A stretch of 29,824 nt of DNA, taken from NCBI GenBank assembly GCA_024278215.1, contig JAJRTR010000045.1:1-29824 (forward strand), in the 5' to 3' direction. The notes below the pieces were generated by a model. The model searched no databases. It was not told the DNA's origin and saw only the letters and a list, made by a program, of their open reading frames with translations. Below, in pieces: positions 1-22,937 of this stretch. The stretch comes from a bacterium (lineage in GTDB: Bacteria; UBP15; UBA6099; JAJRTR01). A program made the translations under genes and the position numbers. Positions within the stretch are counted from its first letter, which is position 1. Each line of letters starts with the position of its first letter.

Positions 1-376
1 ATAGAGCGCAAGGACGGCATCGAAAAACGATTGGCCGGGCTTCACCTCGAGGAAGGCTCTCTCGTGCTCTACGATCTGACGAGCACTTATTTCGAGGGCC
101 GCGCGTGCCCGCTTGCCGCGCGTGGCTACAGTCGCGACGGCGCAACTATCGTCCGCCGCCGCCCGCAAAGACTGCACAAAACGAACAGACGACGACTATG
201 CTGTACAGATCTTCAGGAAAGTGCTTACAAATCTCGGCACCATCACCCTCAATCTCGTACAACCGAAAGTGGCTGGAGCCGAAACATTTTACAAAATAGC
301 CCGTCCCACCAGATGTCAGCAACGAGCACTGGACCTACTGGACATTCGCCTGCGCGTACCCAGTACGCGCACATAA
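1..376 (+). pseudogene. IS1634-type transposase remnant, internally deleted and frameshifted
   Basis: The left part (frame 1, about bases 1-156) reads DLTSTYFEG followed by CPLAARGYSRDG, the strongly conserved central block of IS1634-type (IS4 superfamily) DDE transposases. After GYSRDG the match is lost. In frame 2 from about base 188 to the TAA at 374-376 the text changes to one resembling the extreme C-terminus of the same family (ITLNLVQPKVAG, then ARPTRCQQRALDLLDI). The middle of the catalytic domain is therefore deleted and the frame shifted by one, so the gene cannot give active transposase. It also runs off the left edge. The family call rests on motif recognition; no terminal inverted repeat is visible. 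Confidence 0.75.
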
Positions 377-440
377 GAAAATACAAATATCCCGATAAAC
401 ACTGGCTTTATTGCGTTTTCACGTTGGGAAGTTCAGGTTA

Positions 441-618
441 GAGCCAATTACAAAATTGTGTTCGTAGTGAGGTCGAGCGAATTTGTTCAGAGCAAGGCGG
501 AGGTGTAAAATCCTCGAAGGTGTACTTGTAGAGTACGTCGAGGATGATTTTATGCCGACAACGCAGCTATGGACAGTAGCAACCGACCGCAGCAGAATCA
601 GAATTTTGCAATTGGCTC
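441..618 (-). mobile_element. 178-bp MITE-like element, copy 1
   Basis: The element begins GAGCCAATTACAAAATT and ends AATTTTGCAATTGGCTC, which are near-perfect terminal inverted repeats of about 17 bp. It is bounded by the 4-bp direct repeat GTTA (437-440 and 619-622), a target-site duplication. A second full copy of exactly 178 bp lies at 12122-12299 in the opposite orientation; by hand alignment I count about 15 mismatches and no gaps. The centre is an inverted repeat (TCCTCG 511-516 with CGAGGA 539-544, and GTACT 522-526 with AGTAC 532-536), so a transcript would fold into a long hairpin. It has no coding capacity and probably moves in trans. Confidence 0.85.
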
Positions 619-12344: not shown

Positions 12345-13514
12345 ATGGTAGACGATGTTATCAATGAAGTTAATGCTAAGATTCGCAGCTATACGAACGA
12401 GCACGTGACAGAATGGAAGAACAGCGGCAGGCCTGTCATCGGCTATTTCTGCCACTATATGCCGGCGGAACTCATACTCGCCGCCGGTGCGCTGCCACTG
12501 AGGCTCAGGGGCGCGGGCTCGGAGGATTCGTCCGCAGGCGACGCATTCATGAGCGGCCGTGTCTGCACGTATGTCAGGCACGTGATGAGCCTTGCCGTCG
12601 AGGGCGATTACGACTTTCTTGATGGTGAGATATGCCTCAACACTTGCGACCATGTGCGACGAGCCGCCGATCTTTTCGTTAAAAAAACAAACATCCCTTT
12701 TCACGGCTTCATCTCGCTTCCGCGCAACCCACGCGAAAGTCTGTATGGCAACCTGCTCAAAGAACTACGCAATCTGCGCGTCGCTCTACAGGATCATTTC
12801 GGTGTTGAAATCACCGATGATCGTCTCCGCGAAGCAATCATTGCGCTGAACAGGAACAGGCGGTTGCTTACTGAAATAAATAATATGCGAAAAGAAGACA
12901 AACCGAAACTTTCCGGTGCGGAATCGCTTTCTGTGCATATCGCTTCGCAGGTTTTGCCGCCCGATGTTTTCGCTGGAATCGCCGAGCGTTTGATTAAAGA
13001 ACTTAAAGACAGACCCGGTCTGGATTCGCCACGCGGCAGGCTTGTGATGCTGGGCGCGGAACTCGACGAACCCGACTATGTCGCGGTCATCGAGAGCCAG
13101 GGCGCGCTCGTCGTCGCCGACCTGCTGTGTTTTGGTCAGCGTTCAGTGCTCGACCCCATCGACGAAAACACGGACGACCCGCTCGATGCGATAGGACGGG
13201 CCTACTTCTTCAGACCGTCCTGCGCGAGAATGATAGGCGACTTCCCCGCAAGATGGGACAACCTTAACCGGATCGTAAGCGACGCGCGTGCGGACGGTGT
13301 TATATTCACACGTCTCCTTTTCTGCGACCCATGGGGCGCGGAACAACATAACCTGCTGCACCGCGCGAAAAAAGGGAACACATTTCCTGTGCTTACACTT
13401 ACAAAAGAATACGGCATCGTGCCTACCGGCCAGTTGCGGACACGTGTGCAGGCGTTTCTGGAAAAAATCGAAATTGCTCGTGCAAAAAGAGACGCAGTTG
13501 GAGGTGCTGTGTGA
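12345..13514 (+). CDS. BcrC/HgdB-type 2-hydroxyacyl-CoA dehydratase/benzoyl-CoA reductase family subunit (module A)
   Basis: This 389-aa cytoplasmic iron-sulfur subunit belongs to the family of HgdB (2-hydroxyglutaryl-CoA dehydratase), FldB and BcrC/BzdN (benzoyl-CoA reductase). The family uses a single low-potential electron from an ATP-driven activator to make ketyl radicals or reduce aromatic rings. Expected motifs and cysteines are present: GYFCHYMPAELILAAGALPLR with C36, C74 (GRVCTYVRH), C101 (NTCDHVRR) and C327 (LLFCDPWG). The end, GQLRTRVQAFLE, is also typical. The closest paralogue in the window is 17900-19027, with C36, C74 and C101 at identical positions. The next gene overlaps by four bases (GTGA). 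Substrate cannot be read from the sequence. Confidence 0.88.
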   Translation: MVDDVINEVNAKIRSYTNEHVTEWKNSGRPVIGYFCHYMPAELILAAGALPLRLRGAGSEDSSAGDAFMSGRVCTYVRHVMSLAVEGDYDFLDGEICLNTCDHVRRAADLFVKKTNIPFHGFISLPRNPRESLYGNLLKELRNLRVALQDHFGVEITDDRLREAIIALNRNRRLLTEINNMRKEDKPKLSGAESLSVHIASQVLPPDVFAGIAERLIKELKDRPGLDSPRGRLVMLGAELDEPDYVAVIESQGALVVADLLCFGQRSVLDPIDENTDDPLDAIGRAYFFRPSCARMIGDFPARWDNLNRIVSDARADGVIFTRLLFCDPWGAEQHNLLHRAKKGNTFPVLTLTKEYGIVPTGQLRTRVQAFLEKIEIARAKRDAVGGAV

Positions 13515-14827
13515 CAGTTGACGAGATGGTTGGCAAACCCGAGTGGCGCAGCATCCTCGAGTCGCTGCCGGTGATAAAGAGATTTTTCGAAGGCGACCCC
13601 GACAGCCACGGCATAAACGCGCTTATGCGTGGAATGTCTATCTATCTGGAAAAACTCGTCGATAATCTCGAACGCGAAAACCCTGCCGTGTGGTATAACC
13701 TCGGTTTCAATTCAGAACTCATATACGCGCTGGACGGCGGCGCGGCGGCCCTGCCTATCGAGGCGCTCGGCGTGATGCACAATCTGCTCGGCGACATTAA
13801 AATATCGATGGATTTTATTGACACGGCGCAGGCCGAAGGTGTGCCGTCCGACTGCTGCTCGGCCGACAAACTCGCTATCGGCACTCTCCACAGGGGACTC
13901 TATCCGAAACCCGCTTGCACTGTCGGCATAAACACGCCGTGCGATTCGCAGGTGATGGCGACACAGGTGATGGCGGAAATGTCGGATGCTCCTTTTTTCG
14001 TTGTGGATGTACCCTATTATCATAATGATGAAACTGTACGGCAGGTGGCGGCGCAACTCGAAGAACTTATTCCGTTTCTCGAAGAAAACACTGGTCGCAG
14101 GATCGATTTCGACAGGCTGCGCGAGGTTTGCGAACTCTCGAATAAGATGACCGAGAATATATGGGAATGGCTCGAATGGCGAAAAAACACGCCGCTTGCG
14201 CAGTCGAGTAAACTTGTGGCGTTCACTCTTATACTTCAGATTCTTTTCGCGGGCACACAGGAAGGTGTCGACATTACGGAAGGTCTCAAACGCGAAGCAC
14301 TCGAACGCACCGAACGCGGTGAGAGGTTCTTCGAGGAGCGTGTACGCGCTGTATGGTATCAGGACCCCGTGTGGACGGACATGCAGATGTACGACTGGTT
14401 CGAGCACGAACTGGGGCTTACTGTGCCGATTGATGTTTTCGGCTACTATGCCAACGAAGGACTCATCGACACATCGACACGCGAAACGATGATCTACGGG
14501 CTTGCGCGAAAGATTGCAAACTGTCATCCGATGGCACGCCAGTTCAGGAGCAACATCGACGTATATATCCGCGACTTTATGCACATGCTCGAATCGTGGA
14601 ACGCCGACTGCTGTATATTCGCGGGGCATATAGCGTGCAAACACGCATGGGGCGGTATCGGCTTGTTTAAAGAAGCGTGCCGACGGGCGGATGTGCCGCT
14701 GCTCGTGTTCGAGTTCGACATGTTCGATCCGCGAATCACATCCTACGACGATGTGTATTTCGAGGTTGACCGCTTTGTCAATGAAATTGTTTATCCACGC
14801 AAGCTTAGAGCAGGAAAGGCGGGTTGA
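13511..14827 (+). CDS. BcrB/HgdA-type subunit of the same family (module A)
   Basis: This 438-aa partner subunit matches the size of BcrB/BzdO (about 430-450 aa). Candidate cluster ligands are C115/C116 (PSDCCSADK), C144 (NTPCDSQ) and C376 (GHIACKHAWGG). The NTPCDS and GHxxCK motifs mark the HgdA/BcrB side of the family. Translation most likely starts at GTG 13511, five bases after GGAGGT and overlapping the previous stop (GTGA); ATG 13526 lies too far from that site. With the preceding gene it forms the catalytic heterodimer of module A. Confidence 0.87.
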   Translation: MTVDEMVGKPEWRSILESLPVIKRFFEGDPDSHGINALMRGMSIYLEKLVDNLERENPAVWYNLGFNSELIYALDGGAAALPIEALGVMHNLLGDIKISMDFIDTAQAEGVPSDCCSADKLAIGTLHRGLYPKPACTVGINTPCDSQVMATQVMAEMSDAPFFVVDVPYYHNDETVRQVAAQLEELIPFLEENTGRRIDFDRLREVCELSNKMTENIWEWLEWRKNTPLAQSSKLVAFTLILQILFAGTQEGVDITEGLKREALERTERGERFFEERVRAVWYQDPVWTDMQMYDWFEHELGLTVPIDVFGYYANEGLIDTSTRETMIYGLARKIANCHPMARQFRSNIDVYIRDFMHMLESWNADCCIFAGHIACKHAWGGIGLFKEACRRADVPLLVFEFDMFDPRITSYDDVYFEVDRFVNEIVYPRKLRAGKAG

Positions 14828-14837
14828 AAGAGGTGCG

Positions 14838-15638
14838 ATGGCTGTAACAGCAGGAGTTGATATCGGATCGACGGCGTCGAAAGCCGTCGTGCTTATAGAT
14901 GGAAAAACCGCAGGACAGATCATAGGGCCGAGTTCGACAAATCCCAAGCGAACCGCCCGCGAGATATATAACAGTGCGCTCGATCATGCAGGCGTTTCCG
15001 CTGCTGATGTCGCTTATGTCGTCGGCACGGGTTATGGCCGCACACAGGTCGAGTTCGCGGATAAAAATGTTTCGGAAATAACGTGCCACGGACGAGGCGC
15101 GCATTTCCTGTGTCCCACTGCGCGTACGGTGATCGACATAGGCGGACAGGACACGAAGGCAGTGTGCATCGACTCGGAAGGCAATCTGCTCGACTTTGTT
15201 ATGAACGACAAATGCGCGGCTGGTACCGGCCGTTTTCTCGAAGCTATGGCGCGCTCGATGGAACTGCCTGTCGAGGAGATGGGACAGCACTACTTCACCG
15301 GCGGCGATCCATGCACGATCACGAGCATGTGCAGCGTGTTCGCCGAAAGCGAGGTCATCAACCTGATAAACGACGGAGTGGAACTTCCCCGAATCGTCAA
15401 GGGACTCCTGCTGTCGCTCGCTGTGCGCGTTTCGTCGCTCGCGCGGCGACTGGGCATTATCGAGGATGTTGTGATGACGGGCGGTGTGGCAAAGAATAAG
15501 GGCGTTTACGATGCGATTGAAAAGAAACTCAAGATAAAAATGAAAAGTTTCGGTGACACTGATCCGCAACTTGTGGGCGCGCTGGGAGCTGCGCTTGTCG
15601 CCGCCGACTTCGCGGGGGCAGGCACAGTAAGTGGATAA
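14838..15638 (+). CDS. BadF/BcrA/HgdC-type activator ATPase (module A)
   Basis: This 266-aa ASKHA-fold ATPase binds one [4Fe-4S] cluster between two identical or related subunits and drives electron transfer into the dehydratase/reductase by ATP hydrolysis. It begins AGVDIGSTASKAVV (phosphate-binding loop) and has VVGTGYGR, IDIGGQDTKAV and MTGGVAKNKGV. The two bridging cysteines are C126 (NDKCAAGTGRF) and C165 (TSMCSVFAESEV), nearly the positions known in HgdC. The frame opens far upstream, but ATG 14838 is preceded by GAAAGAGGTG and lies ten bases after the previous stop. Size is that of HgdC rather than the longer BcrA. Confidence 0.92.
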   Translation: MAVTAGVDIGSTASKAVVLIDGKTAGQIIGPSSTNPKRTAREIYNSALDHAGVSAADVAYVVGTGYGRTQVEFADKNVSEITCHGRGAHFLCPTARTVIDIGGQDTKAVCIDSEGNLLDFVMNDKCAAGTGRFLEAMARSMELPVEEMGQHYFTGGDPCTITSMCSVFAESEVINLINDGVELPRIVKGLLLSLAVRVSSLARRLGIIEDVVMTGGVAKNKGVYDAIEKKLKIKMKSFGDTDPQLVGALGAALVAADFAGAGTVSG

Positions 15639-15659
15639 TGTGAATGTTCGGAATCTTAT

Positions 15660-16472
15660 ATGAATGAAACCGCCGAATCAACAATGAATATCAGCGGTGA
15701 CAACATTCGCTGCGCAATCGCGGGTGATATGGAACCGCTCATTATGCGTGTCAGGACGTTCTTGCAGAACACATTATCACAATCATTGTCATCTGAAGCG
15801 ATCGACTATGAAACGCTTCGCCGGACATTCGGTTACTCTCGCAGTAAGAAGAAAACGGCGGAAGTCATTATCGGCGGCGACATCGGACTCGAACTCGGAC
15901 ATCCGTCTACAGAATCGTTATGTTTCGTTCTGACAACTACAAAAGCGGAGCTTGTTGCTGATGGCCTGATTACCGTCATAGGGCCGGATGCGGGAAATAT
16001 AATAACAAAGGAAAAGCGTCCTTTCGCGCAGGTGATAATGGTCGCAACTGAATCCGGAGCGGACATCGACCCATTTTCGCTGGACAGCGCGCAATATCTG
16101 ATGCAGAGGCTGGACGGCTATATGGTCAGGTCGGTGCCGGGCAGACTATGGTCGCGTTTAAGCAGGAAGTGTATGGCTGACGGACTCGATCTTCATGTTG
16201 TCGGCTCTGCGCTTGCAGATTTTTTCAAACACGAATTCGCCGGTGTGTCAAAAGCGGAGATACTTTTCGTCACATCCAGTGCGGAAGATGTGCTTTCACT
16301 TAAACCGATCGAAACCGAGGCTTCGATACTTGCGGGAAAACACAAAAAACTTTTCCTCGGACTGGACGGAGTTGTGGAATGCAGCGAGTTGAATTGTGAA
16401 GTATGCGACGAAAAACCTGTGTGCGACAGCCTCAGGGACATTGTAGTTAAACGGAGGCGAATAAAACGATGA
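15660..16472 (+). CDS. CO dehydrogenase/acetyl-CoA synthase beta-subunit-like protein
   Basis: This 270-aa protein resembles the part of archaeal-type CODH/ACS beta (CdhC) that reads ELGxP, then DGxIxxIGPD: here LELGHPSTES (77-86) and DGLITVIGPDAGN (101-113). A second recognisable block is GYMVRSVPGRLWSR (153-166). The C-terminus has four cysteines, C241-X4-C246-X2-C249-X5-C255, suited to an iron-sulfur or zinc site. It is much shorter than true ACS beta (about 470 aa or more) and I do not see the A-cluster domain, so acetyl-CoA synthase activity is not implied. A CooC-type ATPase two genes on supports a metal-cluster role. The start is uncertain: no clear ribosome-binding site; ATG 15684 is an alternative. 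Confidence 0.5.
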   Translation: MNETAESTMNISGDNIRCAIAGDMEPLIMRVRTFLQNTLSQSLSSEAIDYETLRRTFGYSRSKKKTAEVIIGGDIGLELGHPSTESLCFVLTTTKAELVADGLITVIGPDAGNIITKEKRPFAQVIMVATESGADIDPFSLDSAQYLMQRLDGYMVRSVPGRLWSRLSRKCMADGLDLHVVGSALADFFKHEFAGVSKAEILFVTSSAEDVLSLKPIETEASILAGKHKKLFLGLDGVVECSELNCEVCDEKPVCDSLRDIVVKRRRIKR

Positions 16473-17131
16473 GCACGGAAACACTTTCAAGGCCGTTGAT
16501 ACTGTCATCATTCTACATGCGGCTGGCTTCGATGGAGGAAATAGTCAGAATCGTGCTTTCCGAAGCGGAACTCAGCGCGCTGCTGACTTTCAGGGGCGCG
16601 CCCGAAAAGAAAGTGCTGCTGGACTACAGGCGGCGGCCTGCCCGCCTGGAGGTTGACGGACCGGAGAAATCAGCGAATATATTTTTGACTATCGATGCCG
16701 ATATCATGCACGAGGTGATGCTTGATCGTGTAAAACCGGGGGTCGCGCTTGCGCATCGCGAAATGCTGCTGAGGGGCAGCGCGTGCGATCTTGCAAAATT
16801 CATTCAATTACTCGAATTCGGCCCCATGCTGTACGACGAACATGCCGCGGATATCGGACTTGAAGGCTTCGCGAGATATAAAAACAACAGTCTCCTTTCG
16901 GAGGAACAACTTATGAACGAAAAGACATTTGAAGGTAACCCGATACCTGTTGTTAAGGTCTCGGCGGGCGAGAAGGCCGCAACAGGCATAATAAACAGGC
17001 TTGGCTATGCTGTCGGCTATGCGCTCGGAGTACTGCGGTACAGGCTGCTGAAAAAACTCAGCCTGTTCGAGGTTCTGACATGGATGTCGAAGGGGCTCGA
17101 GGCCGCACGTCCTGAAAGACCGAAGGAATAA
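16469..17131 (+). CDS. SCP2-like sterol/lipid-binding domain protein
   Basis: This 220-aa protein has the outline of an SCP2 domain (about residues 25-115). It contains a LTIDADIMHEVML strand-helix, then the segment KPGVALAHREMLLRGSACDLAKFIQLL, in which a low-specificity lipid pocket and the xLxGxxxxxxKFxxLL motif are typical. The C-terminal third is basic with an amphipathic or membrane-associating stretch (LGYAVGYALGVLRYRLLKKL). SCP2 domains bind fatty acyl-CoA, sterols and other hydrophobic ligands. Its start overlaps the previous gene (ATGA) and GGAGG lies 11 bases before it. Placement inside a reductase operon suggests it holds a hydrophobic substrate. The fold call is by pattern. Confidence 0.55.
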   Translation: MSTETLSRPLILSSFYMRLASMEEIVRIVLSEAELSALLTFRGAPEKKVLLDYRRRPARLEVDGPEKSANIFLTIDADIMHEVMLDRVKPGVALAHREMLLRGSACDLAKFIQLLEFGPMLYDEHAADIGLEGFARYKNNSLLSEEQLMNEKTFEGNPIPVVKVSAGEKAATGIINRLGYAVGYALGVLRYRLLKKLSLFEVLTWMSKGLEAARPERPKE

Positions 17132-17916
17132 TGCCATCAGGAAACAGTAACAACAAACCTGTAGTCGCTGTGTGCGGCAAGGGCGGCGTCGGTAAAACAG
17201 TTTTCTGTGCACTGTTCGCAAAAGCGCTTGTTGAAGCGGGTTGGGTGCCGATGCTTCTCGTGGATGCCGACCCTGTGGGTGGACTCATCAGGGCTATCGG
17301 CGAAACCGTGAAGAAAACTATTGCATCGGCGCGCAGCGAACTTATCGCTTCGGCGAGAAATGCCGGTGCTGAAGATAAAAGCAGGATAGCGCGGCAACTC
17401 GATTATTACTTGCTCGAAACCCTTGAGGAGCGCGACAGCTACTCGATGCTCGCTATAGGCAGGTCGCCCGAAAAAGGATGTTTCTGCCCCGCGAACACGC
17501 TGTTGCGCGAAGCGATAAACGCTGTCGCAGAGCCGTTCGCTTTTGTGCTCATAGACGCCGAGGCCGGTGTAGAACAGATAAAAAGAGAAGTGACGAGAAA
17601 TGTTACGGACATAATTGTAGTGCATGACGGCTCGATGCGTAGCGCGGAGGCACTCGAGTATATAGCGGACCTTGCGGGCGGCATTCGCACATTCTCTGTA
17701 GCGAACAGAAGTGAAGAAGGCAATAATATAGAGCTCCCTGCCTGTGTTCGTATGCTTGGCCATGTGCCTGAAGATGAAGACGTGAGAGACTATGACCGCG
17801 CGGGCCGCCCTTTATGGGAATTGCCGAATGACAACTATGCAACGAATGCGGTAAGGAACATACAGAAGAACTATTCAGAGTTTACAGTGGAAACGCAACA
17901 TGAGCCGAGTGAGTGA
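17131..17916 (+). CDS. CooC-type metal-insertion ATPase (MinD/SIMIBI family)
   Basis: This 261-aa P-loop ATPase starts VVAVCGKGGVGKT (deviant Walker A, residues 15-23) with the switch region MLLVDADP, like MinD and CooC. A CXC motif, C117-F-C119 in EKGCFCPANTLLREA, matches the zinc/nickel-binding CXC of CooC, which helps insert nickel into CO dehydrogenase. Walker B-like text is FVLIDAEAGVEQIKR. The gene shares one base with the previous stop (TAATG) and overlaps the next gene by 17 bp. No CO dehydrogenase catalytic subunit (CooS) is present in the window; its likely clients are the metal-containing proteins of this operon. Confidence 0.8.
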   Translation: MPSGNSNNKPVVAVCGKGGVGKTVFCALFAKALVEAGWVPMLLVDADPVGGLIRAIGETVKKTIASARSELIASARNAGAEDKSRIARQLDYYLLETLEERDSYSMLAIGRSPEKGCFCPANTLLREAINAVAEPFAFVLIDAEAGVEQIKREVTRNVTDIIVVHDGSMRSAEALEYIADLAGGIRTFSVANRSEEGNNIELPACVRMLGHVPEDEDVRDYDRAGRPLWELPNDNYATNAVRNIQKNYSEFTVETQHEPSE

Positions 17917-19027
17917 GACAGGTTTCTCCGGACTGCTCGATCTGCCGTTGAACCGGCTCGTCGATAAAGCACGCGACGAGGGCGGCAGGATAATCGGGTA
18001 TACTTGCAGCTATGTGCCCGAGCCGCTTATCAGTGTCGACGGCCTCGTCCCTATCCGTATGCGCGCGCCGGGTGTCTCAGGCACACCGCTCGCTGATACC
18101 TACATGTCAAGTGTTATCTGTTCGTACACACGCAGCATACTCGAATTCGCCCTCGACGGCTTCTACAACGAACTCGACGGATGGGTTTTTACCGCGAGTT
18201 GCGACCATCTGCGACGCCTGTACGATAACCTTTCATATCTCGAAAACCCACCCTTCAATTACATGATCGACCTGCCACATAAGATTAGCGAGCCGGCGAT
18301 AAGCTGGTTCCACGAAGAACTTAAACTACTCGCGGGAGCGCTCTCCGCCGACTTCGGCGTCGACACCGGACCGGACGCTCTGCGAAATGCTATTGCCAAA
18401 CTGAACAGTTTCAATGCGATCCTTCGTGAGATCGGCGAGATGCGAAAAGAAGACACACCTCCAATATCCGGTCGCGACTTCCACGAGATCGTGGCTGCCT
18501 GCGCGTCTTCACCAAAGTACTTGCTGAAAGATAAAATATGCAAATATCACGAGTCACTGAAACGCAACGACGGAACAGATGATTACAGGGCGCGGCTGAT
18601 GCTGGTAGGCAGCCAGTTGGACGACCCCGAATATATCAGCGTAATTGAATCTGTAGGCGGACTTGTAGTCGCCGACCGCTGCTGCCTTGGCTCATTCCCC
18701 GGCCTTGCGCACATCGAATGCGGCACTGACCCGCTCCGCTCGCTCGCCGAACACTATCTCGCCAAAACTTCCTGCCCGCGCATGATGGAGGAGTTCGACA
18801 GCAGGATTGAAAACATTATCGGTATTGCGCGTGAATACCGCGTCGATGGAATAATTATCGAGACGATGAAATTCTGCGACTGCTGGGGCGTGGACTCCGG
18901 ACTGCTGGTATCGGCACTCCGCGACCGTAATATACCGGTGCTCCGGCTCGAACGGGAATACTCGCTTTCCGGCGAAGGACAGATACGCACGCGTGTGCAG
19001 GCATTCATCGAAAGCATGGGCAAATAG
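17900..19027 (+). CDS. BcrC/HgdB-type subunit of the dehydratase/reductase family (module B)
   Basis: This 375-aa protein is a paralogue of the product of 12345-13514: the cysteines C36 (GYTCSYVPEPL), C74 (SVICSYTRS) and C101 (TASCDHLRR) fall at identical positions. The MRKED motif (181-185) and the GQIRTRVQAFIE end are also shared. The late site is different: FCDCWG (C326 and C328) instead of FCDPWG. Extra cysteines at 261-262 (DRCCLG) are absent from module A. It overlaps the CooC-type gene by 17 bp, so translation is coupled. It should pair with the next gene product. Confidence 0.87.
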   Translation: MSRVSETGFSGLLDLPLNRLVDKARDEGGRIIGYTCSYVPEPLISVDGLVPIRMRAPGVSGTPLADTYMSSVICSYTRSILEFALDGFYNELDGWVFTASCDHLRRLYDNLSYLENPPFNYMIDLPHKISEPAISWFHEELKLLAGALSADFGVDTGPDALRNAIAKLNSFNAILREIGEMRKEDTPPISGRDFHEIVAACASSPKYLLKDKICKYHESLKRNDGTDDYRARLMLVGSQLDDPEYISVIESVGGLVVADRCCLGSFPGLAHIECGTDPLRSLAEHYLAKTSCPRMMEEFDSRIENIIGIAREYRVDGIIIETMKFCDCWGVDSGLLVSALRDRNIPVLRLEREYSLSGEGQIRTRVQAFIESMGK

Positions 19028-19031
19028 ATAT

Positions 19032-20468
19032 ATGGCAACAAATAAATTCAGCGCACAATGGCTGGTGGATAATGCCGTTCGCGGTACCTACTGGCTCGAA
19101 AACTGGCTGAAAATCGGCTGGCTCGGCGGCAAAAGAGGTCCGTTCTTTATCCGCAGCAAGCTCGAGCAGTTCCCATGGATGTGGAACATCATGCGCGCCA
19201 ACCAACTGCTGAATATGGTCACCCGCACACGCAGTGGCCCTTATCTCGAAGCCAACGCCGTGGTGATCACGAATCTTGTGGGAAGCATTATGGAAATGGT
19301 GGACGGGATATTCGCGAGAAAAAGCGATACTGTACTGCATGAAGACCTTGTGCCGCCGGAGATTCTGTATGGTATGGGACTGAATCCATGGATGGCCGAG
19401 TTTCTCGGCATCGTCGTCCCGCTGATAAACCAGACCACGATGGAACATTACATAGATGTTGCCGAGAACGAGGGCATCCCGCCCGACGTGTGCAGTTTGC
19501 CGAAAAGCACCATGGGCCTCGCGCTCGAACATGAACTCCCTGATCCGGTTGCGATAATTTCGTCCAATATGCCTTGTGACGGCGGCATGAATTCTTACTC
19601 GCTGATCGAACAACAATACGATGCGCCCGCATACAGACTCGATGTTCCCTACGACTTCTATAACGAACGTGCAATAGACTACTTCGTCGGCGAACTGGCT
19701 CGCATGATCGACTGGCTCGAACAGAACACGCCCGGCCGCATGGACTGGAACCGCATGCGCGGCGTGTGCGAGGAACGCAACAGGTATGTCGAACTCGAAC
19801 TCGACCTGTGGGATATGGTACACGAGGTGCCCGCGCCTATGGCTGCCGAGCCGATATACCTGACGCATCTTATGTTCGGCATCGCGCAGCCGGGCCACCC
19901 GCGCGGCACTCGCACTATGCAGCGTGTGATCGACCTCGCTTCGAAGATCAGACACAAAGGCGGCGGCGCGTTCGGCGACGAACGCTACAGGGTGATACTC
20001 TGGAATCCGCCTACCCTTATATTTCAGGACATTTTTGTGTGGGCCGAGCAGGCTTACGGCGTTGCGATGGTTATGGACATGCTTACTTATCATCGTCATC
20101 CATATATCGACACATCAACGCCGGAGTCTATGTTGCGCGGCATCGCCCATTGCATGATGCAAGGTCCTATGGCGCGACACACACGCGGACCGGCGGAGAA
20201 CTTTTTCAGCGATCTTTTCGATATTTACGAGCGGTTCAACGCCGATATGATATGGATGGCGGGCCACATCGGCTGCAAAAACACACAGGCGCTCAACGGC
20301 ATGTTCCGCGAGAAATGCCGTGAACGCGGCATACCGTTGCTGTTCATCGACTACGACCTTTCCGACACTCGCATCGTTCCGCCTGAAGGCATTCGACGTC
20401 AGATCGAGCAGTTTATGGAAACCGTGATGAATGCGGAGCGGCTCGATTCCGGCAGGGAGGATGATTGA
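19032..20468 (+). CDS. BcrB/HgdA-type subunit with extended N-terminus (module B)
   Basis: From ATG 19032, four bases after the previous stop, the protein has 478 aa. Ligand motifs of the family are C154 (PPDVCSLPK), C182 (NMPCDGG) and C415 (GHIGCKNTQ). Compared with module A's 438-aa partner it has about 40 more residues, mainly an aromatic-rich N-terminus (TYWLENWLKIGWLGG). The frame is open 13 codons upstream, inside the previous gene, without a ribosome-binding site, so the shorter form is preferred. It probably forms the heterodimeric catalytic core of module B with the preceding gene product. Confidence 0.87.
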   Translation: MATNKFSAQWLVDNAVRGTYWLENWLKIGWLGGKRGPFFIRSKLEQFPWMWNIMRANQLLNMVTRTRSGPYLEANAVVITNLVGSIMEMVDGIFARKSDTVLHEDLVPPEILYGMGLNPWMAEFLGIVVPLINQTTMEHYIDVAENEGIPPDVCSLPKSTMGLALEHELPDPVAIISSNMPCDGGMNSYSLIEQQYDAPAYRLDVPYDFYNERAIDYFVGELARMIDWLEQNTPGRMDWNRMRGVCEERNRYVELELDLWDMVHEVPAPMAAEPIYLTHLMFGIAQPGHPRGTRTMQRVIDLASKIRHKGGGAFGDERYRVILWNPPTLIFQDIFVWAEQAYGVAMVMDMLTYHRHPYIDTSTPESMLRGIAHCMMQGPMARHTRGPAENFFSDLFDIYERFNADMIWMAGHIGCKNTQALNGMFREKCRERGIPLLFIDYDLSDTRIVPPEGIRRQIEQFMETVMNAERLDSGREDD

Positions 20469-20470
20469 TA

Positions 20471-21262
20471 ATGACGGCTTATTTCGGCGGCTGCGATGTT
20501 GGCTCGACAACCGGCAAGTCCGTGATCCTTAAAGACGGCGAGATCGTCGCCGACGCAATTATCAAAAGCAGGATCGATCCTGAAGAAACCGCCAGGCTCG
20601 TCATGGCTGATGCAGTGTCGAAAACCGGTGGTATCGACCGTGTCGAGGACATTGCATACCTTGTCGGCACGGGTTACGGCAGGAACGAAGTCCCGTTCGC
20701 GAATGAAAATATTTCCGAGATCACCTGCCACTCCGTGGGAGCGCATTTCTGCGATCGGAAAATACGCACGATAATAGACATCGGAGGGCAGGACGTAAAA
20801 GCAATATCCGTTAGAGACGATGGCTCGGTGCTCGAATTCGCGATGAACGACAAGTGCGCGGCCGGCACAGGGAAGTTCTTCGAAGCCATGAGCAGGACAT
20901 TCGATATGAGCATCGAAGACTTCTCCAGGTTGCCGCTGAAGGCAAACAGACTGGTGCCGGTCACGGCCCAGTGCAGCGTGTTCGCGGAGACGGAAGTGGT
21001 AAGCCTCATAAGCAGAAAAAAGCCGCCCGCCGACATTGCGGCAGGCATACACGCGGCGGTAGCCAAACGCTGCTACACACTCGCGCGCCGTGTCGGCGTG
21101 CGTCCGAAGGTTACGATGACAGGCGGCTGCGCAAAAAATGCCGGTCTTATGCAGGCTCTGGAAAAAGTACTGCATTCGGAAGTCACGAGACTTGACTACG
21201 ATCCGCAACTTGTCGGCGCACTCGGCGCGGCTGTCCTGGCGATGCGAAAATGCGACAGGTGA
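20471..21262 (+). CDS. BadF/BcrA/HgdC-type activator ATPase (module B)
   Basis: This 263-aa protein is the second ASKHA activator of the operon. Motifs are GGCDVGSTTGKSVI, VGTGYGR, IDIGGQDVKAI and MTGGCAKNAGL. The cluster-bridging cysteines are C129 (NDKCAAGTGKF) and C168 (TAQCSVFAETEV). Compared with module A the protein is diverged but complete. The ATG at 20471 lies two bases after the previous stop behind AGGGAGGAT; the TTG six bases earlier is a poorer start. It could serve module B only, or form a mixed dimer with the module A activator as BcrA/BcrD do in benzoyl-CoA reductase. Confidence 0.92.
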   Translation: MTAYFGGCDVGSTTGKSVILKDGEIVADAIIKSRIDPEETARLVMADAVSKTGGIDRVEDIAYLVGTGYGRNEVPFANENISEITCHSVGAHFCDRKIRTIIDIGGQDVKAISVRDDGSVLEFAMNDKCAAGTGKFFEAMSRTFDMSIEDFSRLPLKANRLVPVTAQCSVFAETEVVSLISRKKPPADIAAGIHAAVAKRCYTLARRVGVRPKVTMTGGCAKNAGLMQALEKVLHSEVTRLDYDPQLVGALGAAVLAMRKCDR

Positions 21263-21310
21263 CACAGAGCAACCCATATTATGATGAACGCCGGAGCGTT
21301 CAATCCATGC

Positions 21311-21364
21311 GTTCCCACCGGAGGGCACGGTGGGAACGGGGAGTACGGTGGGAACGATGGGAAC
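21311..21364. repeat. GTTCCCACC/GGTGGGAAC inverted and direct repeats
   Basis: GTTCCCACC (21311-21319) pairs exactly with GGTGGGAAC at 21329-21337, and GGTGGGAAC recurs at 21347-21355, with a further ATGGGAAC at 21357-21364. It lies in the 328-bp gap between the module B activator and the GMC gene. No T-run follows, so it is not a standard intrinsic terminator. Confidence 0.6.
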
Positions 21365-21440
21365 ATTTTTGCACTGCACACATATCGTGTTTGAACAATA
21401 ACACCATACCTCTTTGCTATTTGGTGTGGGTAGAGAGCAG

Positions 21441-21506
21441 CACAGGCGAGACGCCCGTGCCTCCGAAAGATGATGTTATATATGTAGCACAGGCGTCTCG
21501 CCTGTG
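21441..21506. repeat. 15-bp inverted repeat CACAGGCGAGACGCC, nested palindrome
   Basis: CACAGGCGAGACGCC (21441-21455) is the exact reverse complement of 21492-21506, giving a 15-bp stem with a 36-base loop. The right arm with its flank is itself a palindrome (CACAGGCG, TCT, CGCCTGTG, 21488-21506). It resembles a dispersed repeat seen in several environmental genomes. It could attenuate transcription between the nine-gene block and the GMC gene. Confidence 0.6.
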
Positions 21507-21590
21507 ACAAATGAAAGTTGCGTTGTAGTGTTAATATGTAGCAATAAAAAACAGATATACTGCAACAAAATGCAACTAATCGGAGCTAAA

Positions 21591-22937
21591 ATGAAAACGA
21601 TACACAAAAAAGCAGACATCGTAATAGCAGGTTCGGGGCCGGGCGGCGCGACAGTGGCCTGCAAACTCGCGCGTGCAGGCAAAAAAGTATTGCTGCTCGA
21701 GAAGGGCCGCGATATCAAGTTCCTCGGCAATCACCTGACGGGACTTCTGATATCCGATAAGTTGGGCCTCAACTTCAGCGAAGAGGGCCTTAATATCGTT
21801 CGCGCTATTGTAACCGGCGGCTCGACGATAATGTATTGCGGCGCGGCAACACCACCACCAGACTACATAAAAACAAAATATAAAATCGACCTGGACAAGT
21901 ATGTGAACGAAACGATTGACGAACTCGATCTGAACCCCCTGCCTGATGAGATCATAGGCAAAGCGGGCCTGCGTATAATGGAAGCCGGCAATGAACTCGG
22001 CTATGAGTTTGAAAGAATGCGTAAATTCATCAATCCCGATAAATGCAGGTCTGTGTGCGGCGGCACTTGCATGATGGGCTGCCCGAGAGGCGCGAAATGG
22101 AGCGCTCGCGAATATATCAAGGAGATGCAGGCGGCGGGCGGAGAACTCGTCGTGCGCGCCGACGTGCAGCATGTGAAAATTGAAGACGGCGTGGCGACAG
22201 GAATGCTGGCGCACATCCCCGGCGGTTTCCTGGACGTGGACGCGGATGTTGTGGTTGTATCGGCAGGCGGCGTGGGAACCCCCTGCATACTTCAGAAATC
22301 GGGTCTGCACGAAGCAGGCCGGGGTATGTTCGTCGATCCGCTGGTCTTCGTCACCGGTGTGGCAAAAGACAGGGGCACATGTCTCGGTCCGCCCATGTCA
22401 GTCGGCACCTATAAAATGAACGAAGAAGGCATCGTGCTTTCAGACCTGATCGATCCGCTCTGGATGTGGGTGATTATGGCGGCGCTCAAGAACACGTCGA
22501 AGGTGCTCGACTTTCTCAAATACAGGCGTCAGTACGGCATAATGGTGAAGATAGGGGACGACCGGCAGGGTTTTGTAACAATGGACGGCAGGATATCAAA
22601 ACCGTTGACGGAACGCGACAGGTACAGGCTGAACCGCGGCGCGTCAATATCTCGCGAAATCCTTATAAAAGCCGGCTGCAACTCGAAGTCCATCATCGTC
22701 GGACCTGTGCGCGGCGCACACCCGGGCTCGACAGCGCGAGTAGGAGAAGTGGTGGATACAAACCTCCAGACCAGGGTTAAGAATCTCTTTGTTTCCGACG
22801 CATCCGTCATACCCGAAGCGCTCGACCGCCCTGTGGTACTCACGATGATAAGCCTCGCAAAACGGCTCTCCGACCACTTGATCGAAAATGTGTTTGGAAA
22901 TGGTGGAATATCGTCAAAAATCGAGGAGAAACAATAG
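21591..22937 (+). CDS. GMC-type FAD-dependent oxidoreductase with a four-cysteine insert
   Basis: This 448-aa flavoprotein has the N-terminal FAD-binding motif IVIAGSGPGGATVACKLARAG with LLLEKG. The GMC C-terminal domain includes GAHPGSTARVGEVVD and the FAD-contacting NLFVSDASVIPE segment, then RPVVLTMISLAKRLS. A middle insert has cysteines exactly four apart: C152, C156, C160, C164 (KCRSVCGGTCMMGCPRG), which could hold an iron-sulfur cluster or metal. The family oxidises alcohols or saturated carbons. The frame opens at 21504, but ATG 21591 with GGAG just upstream starts right before the FAD motif. It follows the reductase operon on the same strand after 328 bp of repeats. Confidence 0.85.
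   Translation: MKTIHKKADIVIAGSGPGGATVACKLARAGKKVLLLEKGRDIKFLGNHLTGLLISDKLGLNFSEEGLNIVRAIVTGGSTIMYCGAATPPPDYIKTKYKIDLDKYVNETIDELDLNPLPDEIIGKAGLRIMEAGNELGYEFERMRKFINPDKCRSVCGGTCMMGCPRGAKWSAREYIKEMQAAGGELVVRADVQHVKIEDGVATGMLAHIPGGFLDVDADVVVVSAGGVGTPCILQKSGLHEAGRGMFVDPLVFVTGVAKDRGTCLGPPMSVGTYKMNEEGIVLSDLIDPLWMWVIMAALKNTSKVLDFLKYRRQYGIMVKIGDDRQGFVTMDGRISKPLTERDRYRLNRGASISREILIKAGCNSKSIIVGPVRGAHPGSTARVGEVVDTNLQTRVKNLFVSDASVIPEALDRPVVLTMISLAKRLSDHLIENVFGNGGISSKIEEKQ

Follow-up and report, generated by a model that had tools for sequence, protein, structure and literature searches.

A bacterial operon encoding two benzoyl-CoA reductase-type modules and an acetyl-CoA synthase-derived partner protein

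What could two ATP-driven enzyme modules do when they are encoded in one operon together with an acetyl-CoA synthase (ACS)-like, an SCP2-like, a CooC-like and a GMC-type protein? This question is raised by contig JAJRTR010000045.1 (assembly GCA_024278215.1), of which a stretch of 29,824 nucleotides, here called the window, was analysed. A sequence-only reading of the window had listed ten genes, and open reading frames, Pfam, NCBIfam and structure matches confirmed all of them, on the + strand at 12345..22937 and in the stated order A1-A2-A3-M-S-K-B1-B2-B3-G. Our best explanation, to which as a whole we give an even chance, is that two benzoyl-CoA reductase (BCR)-type ATP-dependent reductases and a cluster-related pair, M and K, act with S and G on a hydrophobic CoA thioester. 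The first nine genes had also been described as tightly packed. This held, as neighbours overlapped or were no more than 21 bp apart (A1-A2, -4; A2-A3, 4; A3-M, 21; M-S, -4; S-K, -1; K-B1, -17; B1-B2, -35, or 4 with the ATG at 19032; B2-B3, -4). The GMC gene is not tightly linked in the window, where it lay 241 bp beyond B3, but it is in relatives. The GC content of the operon was 53.6%, compared with 48.1% in the remaining window.

The large subunits of the two modules, A1 (12345..13514, BzdN/BcrC/DCCP-like) and B1 (17900..19027), matched Pfam HGD-D at 1.1e-75 and 4.3e-87, respectively. In BzdN the [8Fe-9S] double cubane is bound by Cys36, Cys73, Cys100, Cys263, Cys293 and Cys327 (PMC11971306). 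Alignment to BzdN and to the double-cubane cluster protein (DCCP) showed that A1 and B1 have all six cysteines (CCCCCC), as do 80 of the 82 large subunits aligned, A1 and B1 among them, and that the set is incomplete in HadC (PCCACC) and MbdN (QCCFSC). The second subunits, A2 (13511..14827, BzdO/HadB-like) and B2 (18993..20468, likely start ATG 19032), matched HGD-D at 5.1e-54 and 1.8e-60. The counterparts of the BzdO cluster ligands Cys95, Cys128 and Cys380, aligned via HadB and a BzdO reference available as a partial alignment only, were Cys116, Cys144 and Cys376 in A2 and Cys167, Cys195 and Cys428 in B2. The first two were invariant in second subunits (100/100), while the third, within the motif GH-x-x-[CH]-K, was Cys in 74 of the 100 sequences, A2 and B2 included, and His in 25. 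The region of BzdO Glu65 contained Glu84 in A2 and Glu136 in B2, in an alignment through HadB only. Both activases, A3 (14832..15638, HgdC/BzdQ-like) and B3 (20465..21262), exceeded the TIGR00241 cut-off of 125 bits (255 bits, 7.7e-76, and 239 bits, 6e-71), and both contained the CAAGTG motif and a CSVF cysteine motif (MCSVF in A3, QCSVF in B3).

Two variations were seen among the second subunits of relatives. The Cys-to-His change at the third ligand (GHMGHK, 25/100) occurred at L127, L123, L128, L120-L122, L097, L204 and other loci. The active-site Glu was absent from 26 of the 100, a set counted separately from the Cys-to-His sequences.

The two modules had been called dehydratase or ring-reductase modules; their ATP-driven BCR/HGD type stood, and reduction is the likelier function. 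BzdNO and DCCP, both of them reductive, contain the full double cubane, whereas 2-hydroxyacyl-CoA dehydratases retain a remnant of it (PMC11971306). Since A1 and B1 carry the full six-cysteine set, net reduction is our best guess, and by analogy the modules are most likely reductases and not dehydratases. Alternatively, they could be a pair of 2-hydroxyacyl-CoA dehydratases that carry out a redox-neutral alpha,beta-dehydration of a bulky 2-hydroxyacyl-CoA, recycling the electrons and using the activase for start-up only. The superfamily is the same, each module has a single activase gene, as in HadI/HgdC systems with their one activase gene per system, and beta-oxidation-type genes are neighbours in relatives. 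However, two of the six double-cubane cysteines of A1 and B1 are missing from HadC, the scores for HadC (96 and 108 against a cut-off of 700) and HadB (43 and 42 against 750) were far too low, and flavodoxin and ferredoxin genes between or within the modules of L185-type loci suggest a continuous electron supply. We consider the dehydratase explanation improbable.

The relationship of the modules to known reductases was then analysed. In a midpoint-rooted tree of large subunits with four partial reference sequences, the M-linked proteins formed one clade (support 0.974) apart from BzdN, HadC, MbdN and DCCP, so a phylogeny suggested in the sequence-only reading placed both modules outside known families. 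In NCBIfam, A1 and B1 matched the double_cubane family best (scores of 188 and 173, cut-off 350), and the equivalog scores for bzdN (149/454), bcrC (116/421) and bzdO (52/449) were, like these, far below cut-off. On this evidence the modules belong to a clade of the HGD-D/BCR superfamily that has not been described, a widespread variant of BCR/HGD-D enzymes with an ACS-derived partner. The same genome contains two more HGD-D pairs, L138 (G000:C154) and L139 (G000:C151), which were outside the M-linked clade, and one of which was closest to HadB (316 bits).

Both modules could also be class I aryl-CoA reductases of a divergent kind that serve a benzoyl-CoA-type pathway for aromatic acids, the ring-opening enzymes being encoded elsewhere. 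The best solved-structure match of A1 was BzdN (2.2e-40), all six BzdN double-cubane cysteines are present, and CoA transferases are encoded elsewhere in the genome. Against this proposal are the bzdN and bcrC scores, a tree position of A1 and B1 that is not within the BzdN/HadC/MbdN group, and the apparent lack of conservation of BzdO His131; it also gives no explanation for M, K, S and G. The ring hydrolase Oah, a marker of the benzoyl-CoA pathway, was not found over cut-off in this 95%-complete genome (best 102 bits vs 464), in agreement with the earlier statement that the operon does not belong to a standard benzoyl-CoA pathway. The aryl-CoA explanation is therefore unlikely in our estimate, although we rate it slightly above the dehydratase one.

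M (15660..16472) was identified as a free-standing ACS middle domain (PF03598, CdhC, 1.6e-12). Its AlphaFold model (pLDDT 83.5) matched ACS residues 316-490 with a Z score of 20.7 at 2.2 Å, far above other folds, and W164 and R166 (W-x-R) were invariant in 77/77 M proteins and 15/15 ACS sequences. The protein (270 aa) ends just ahead of the A-cluster and has its own cysteine motif there, in which Cys246 and Cys249 were conserved in 77/77 M proteins, Cys255 in 76/77 and Cys241 in 59/77. The A-cluster motif C-x2-C-x8-C-x9-C was present in 15/15 true ACS sequences, whereas M has neither the complete motif nor the C-terminal catalytic domain. M proteins also formed a group separate from the 15 true ACS sequences in a tree (support 0.88). 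The gene had been described as CODH/ACS-beta-like (CODH, carbon monoxide dehydrogenase); the ACS homology was upheld by CdhC and the fold, but it covers the middle domain and not the catalytic A-cluster domain. By sequence and predicted structure, M is an ACS-derived domain protein and not an acetyl-CoA synthase or CODH/ACS beta subunit, and as a truncated ACS domain it is unlikely to carry out genuine CO or acetyl chemistry. An ACS-type CoA-binding role for M was considered and is not claimed, since no residue-level support for it was found in PMC12289521.

As an ACS descendant, M might instead be a catalytic partner of the reductases, receiving nickel from K for C1 or acyl-transfer chemistry. 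This would fit the ACS homology, the W164 and R166 conservation and the CxC-containing CooC protein found at most loci, and in one alignment Cys241, Cys246 and Cys255 of M lay over the first three A-cluster cysteines. However, the fourth cysteine of the A-cluster [4Fe-4S] and the C-terminal catalytic domain are absent, Cys241 is not universal, and two genomes (G045 and G048) have M and no other ACS match. We regard a catalytic M as unlikely too, at a level between the dehydratase and the aryl-CoA explanations.

The remaining proteins of the operon were also investigated. The best solved-structure match of K (17131..17916), a P-loop ATPase of the CooC/AcsF type, was CooC (3kje, 5.5e-8); K has a deviant Walker A motif (GKGGVGKT) and the CxC motif GCFC, and GC[FY]C was found in 57/58 K homologues. 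S (16469..17131) had no Pfam match, and its homologue in L026 matched SCP2 slightly below cut-off. The model of S (pLDDT 80) had the lipid-binding SCP2 fold, extended by additional helices at the C-terminus (Foldseek to SCP2 structures 1.5e-5, TMt about 0.7). The earlier description of ACS-like, SCP2-like and CooC-like proteins flanked by two ATP-driven modules was thus borne out by Pfam, fold match and solved-structure match. G (21504..22937, likely start ATG 21591) is a GMC FAD oxidoreductase with both domains above the Pfam cut-offs (GMC_oxred_N 9.7e-15, 55.4 bits vs 23; GMC_oxred_C 2.9e-7, 31.6 bits vs 24.6). The FAD glucose dehydrogenase 6a2u (8.5e-12) has a Cys-rich stretch to which C-G-G-T-C-M-M-G-C-P of G aligned, so an Fe-S cluster is possible in G, which may act as a dehydrogenase and not as an oxidase. 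Between B3 and the GMC gene (21262-21504) lie the inverted copies GGCGAGACGCC and GGCGTCTCGCC, possibly a small repeat element. At the start of the window (1-441) there is a truncated frame that we take to resemble the end of a transposase (LVLYDLTSTYFEG).

Is the gene set found in other genomes? A search with A2 gave 21 loci with the same neighbours in named genomes of Deltaproteobacteria, Myxococcales and Dehalococcoidia. Searches with M, made without any HGD-D sequence, gave matches in 25/294 genomes of the class Dehalococcoidia, in 3/3 genomes of another small phylum, and in 2/235 of the phylum of the Myxococcales locus. In Desulfobacterota, the phylum of the Syntrophobacteria locus, 71/395 genomes matched M; when split by open-frame length, 28 had a free-standing M and the rest a true ACS. 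Of the distinct M loci, some of which had first been found via A2, 66 of 76 had HGD-D or activase genes nearby, 52 had CooC and 72 had either; some of the M loci without HGD-D, activase or CooC neighbours were contig ends. The co-occurrence search proposed earlier thus revealed a core set that recurs across phyla, and 14 loci, the window included, had two large subunits and CooC, with the modules around M-CooC. The order A1-A2-A3-A3'-M-K-(flavodoxin/ferredoxin)-B1-B2-B3 was found in L185, L186, L193 and others, several of them in Desulfobacterota; the window has this plan plus S, with a single activase per module. In L015 the order was A1-A2-A3-G-M-S-K-B1, with the GMC gene moved and the contig ending inside B1. 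Since the gene set recurs across phyla, its clustering is not due to chance, and the recurring core (two HGD-D subunits, activase, M and CooC) looks like a real enzyme system of anaerobes of several phyla. Beside the two-module clusters of L185, L186, L193, L194, L198 and others, the helical proteins g1 (about 430 aa) and g3 (about 145 and 215 aa) and the small g5 also recur. None of the three had a Pfam match, and hhalign ruled out g1 and g3, beside the Desulfobacterota clusters, as SCP2 relatives.

These counts also bear on the idea that the neighbours are unrelated, M and K being a maturation pair for the CODH/ACS of the cell that by chance lies between two independent HGD-D enzymes. The genome does have a true ACS, on another contig. 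However, M adjoins HGD-D or activase genes in 66/76 loci across phyla, two genomes have M and no true ACS, and among seven genomes of the window phylum, 7/7 had ACS and this one alone had M. This explanation is already disfavoured, and we regard it as very improbable. The restriction of M to one of the seven genomes makes its acquisition by transfer plausible.

We return to the explanation with two BCR-type reductases. In the proposed mechanism, an activase dimer (A3 or B3) would use ATP to drive single electrons of very low potential into the [8Fe-9S] double cubane of A1 or B1, from which they would move on to the [4Fe-4S] site of A2 or B2, where the substrate would be reduced. K and M would work as a pair dedicated to the modules, most likely by assembling or loading a metal cluster for them or by coupling the two. 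S would present the hydrophobic substrate, and G would oxidise or reduce the same compound using FAD. The substrate would most likely be a hydrophobic or branched/cyclic CoA thioester of anaerobic catabolism, reduced in two steps; the modules may act in sequence or form one complex.

The substrate class is suggested by the SCP2 protein together with genes near the loci of relatives. Neighbours in other genomes encoded acyl-CoA dehydrogenases, MaoC-fold proteins, an SCPx-type thiolase with a ChsH2 OB-fold, enoyl-CoA hydratase and 3-hydroxyacyl-CoA dehydrogenase, as well as CoA ligases, CoA transferase III, TRAP binding proteins and TetR regulators. In L120 and L126, genes for acyl-CoA dehydrogenase, MaoC-fold hydratase, SCPx-type thiolase and a ChsH2-like protein lay in one operon-like run. 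A hydrophobic substrate had been proposed earlier; the SCP2 fold and the lipid-type beta-oxidation genes are consistent with it, and sequence and model together point to hydrophobic or branched CoA thioesters.

Several observations weigh against the explanation with two BCR-type reductases. No catabolic genes flank the operon in the window, and the substrate class is therefore drawn from other genomes; the GMC and SCP2 genes are missing from many relatives. The proton donor His131 of BzdO seems to have no counterpart, the residue three after the second cluster Cys being Gln in A2 (CDSQ) and Gly in B2 (CDGG). In L103, L104 and L105, M is beside acyl-CoA dehydrogenase and TRAP DctP genes with no HGD-D gene nearby. 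In G050 and G052 the HGD-D/activase locus has no M and M is located elsewhere, so M need not be co-encoded with HGD-D genes. As a further proposal, K and M might place nickel or a different heterometal in the open site of the second-subunit [4Fe-4S] cluster, or on M, to give an ATP-driven Ni-Fe-S reductase that would merge the machineries of benzoyl-CoA reductase and acetyl-CoA synthase. This is compatible with the CooC CxC motif, the M cysteines at the A-cluster position and the Cys-to-His ligand change of a subclade (25/100), and we consider it improbable.

Among the most negative potentials known in biology are those reached by BCR-type enzymes, of which few kinds are characterised. The present clade was found in 28/395 sampled Desulfobacterota, 25/294 Dehalococcoidia and other phyla, with a recurring accessory pair from the acetyl-CoA synthase world. 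If the explanation with two BCR-type reductases is true, ATP-driven radical reduction in sediments would be extended to a new class of substrates that is probably hydrophobic, an orphan ACS domain would gain a function, and it would become testable whether CooC-type ATPases serve enzymes besides CODH/ACS. A full-text search of openly licensed literature gave no description of this gene set, which fits the earlier statement that no such system had been described. The benzene 'Magic' cluster (PMC13101534) and the BzS1 flavoprotein (PMC13416013) were rejected as counterparts: in the passages found, the genes are for PCMH-type flavoproteins and class II BCR, a different gene set.

Finally, the operon was compared with known systems. 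Like class I benzoyl-CoA reductase BzdNO(PQ) of Aromatoleum (PDB 8s02, PMC11971306), each module has an HGD-D heterodimer with an ATP activase, six double-cubane cysteines, three [4Fe-4S] cysteines and, by the alignment through HadB, a Glu in the active-site region; unlike it, the modules score about one third of the NCBIfam cut-off, form a separate clade, have no apparent His131 counterpart and no Oah found, and have one activase gene each, plus M, S, K and G. The 2-hydroxyisocaproyl-CoA dehydratase HadBC/HadI (PDB 3o3m) shares the superfamily, the activase and the subunit layout, but differs in the double-cubane cysteines of HadC and in equivalog scores. DCCP of Carboxydothermus (PDB 6eno, 7yyl) shares the six cluster cysteines and gave the best NCBIfam match; it is a homodimer of one subunit (PMC11971306), whereas each module here has two unlike HGD-D subunits. 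M resembles the middle domain of acetyl-CoA synthase (PDB 1oao, 3git, 9c0s) in fold and in the invariant W-x-R, and differs in lacking the other ACS domains and a complete A-cluster motif. K has the P-loop and CxC motif of the nickel ATPase CooC1 (PDB 3kje), but the similarity is low and its partners are M and HGD-D genes, not CODH. Beside the HGD-D/M core, the Dehalococcoidia loci L120, L126 and L136 have acyl-CoA dehydrogenase, SCPx-type thiolase and ChsH2-like genes, which we take to resemble the mycobacterial igr side-chain genes (ChsE/ChsH/Ltp2) in gene families only; unlike igr, the window contains no such genes.

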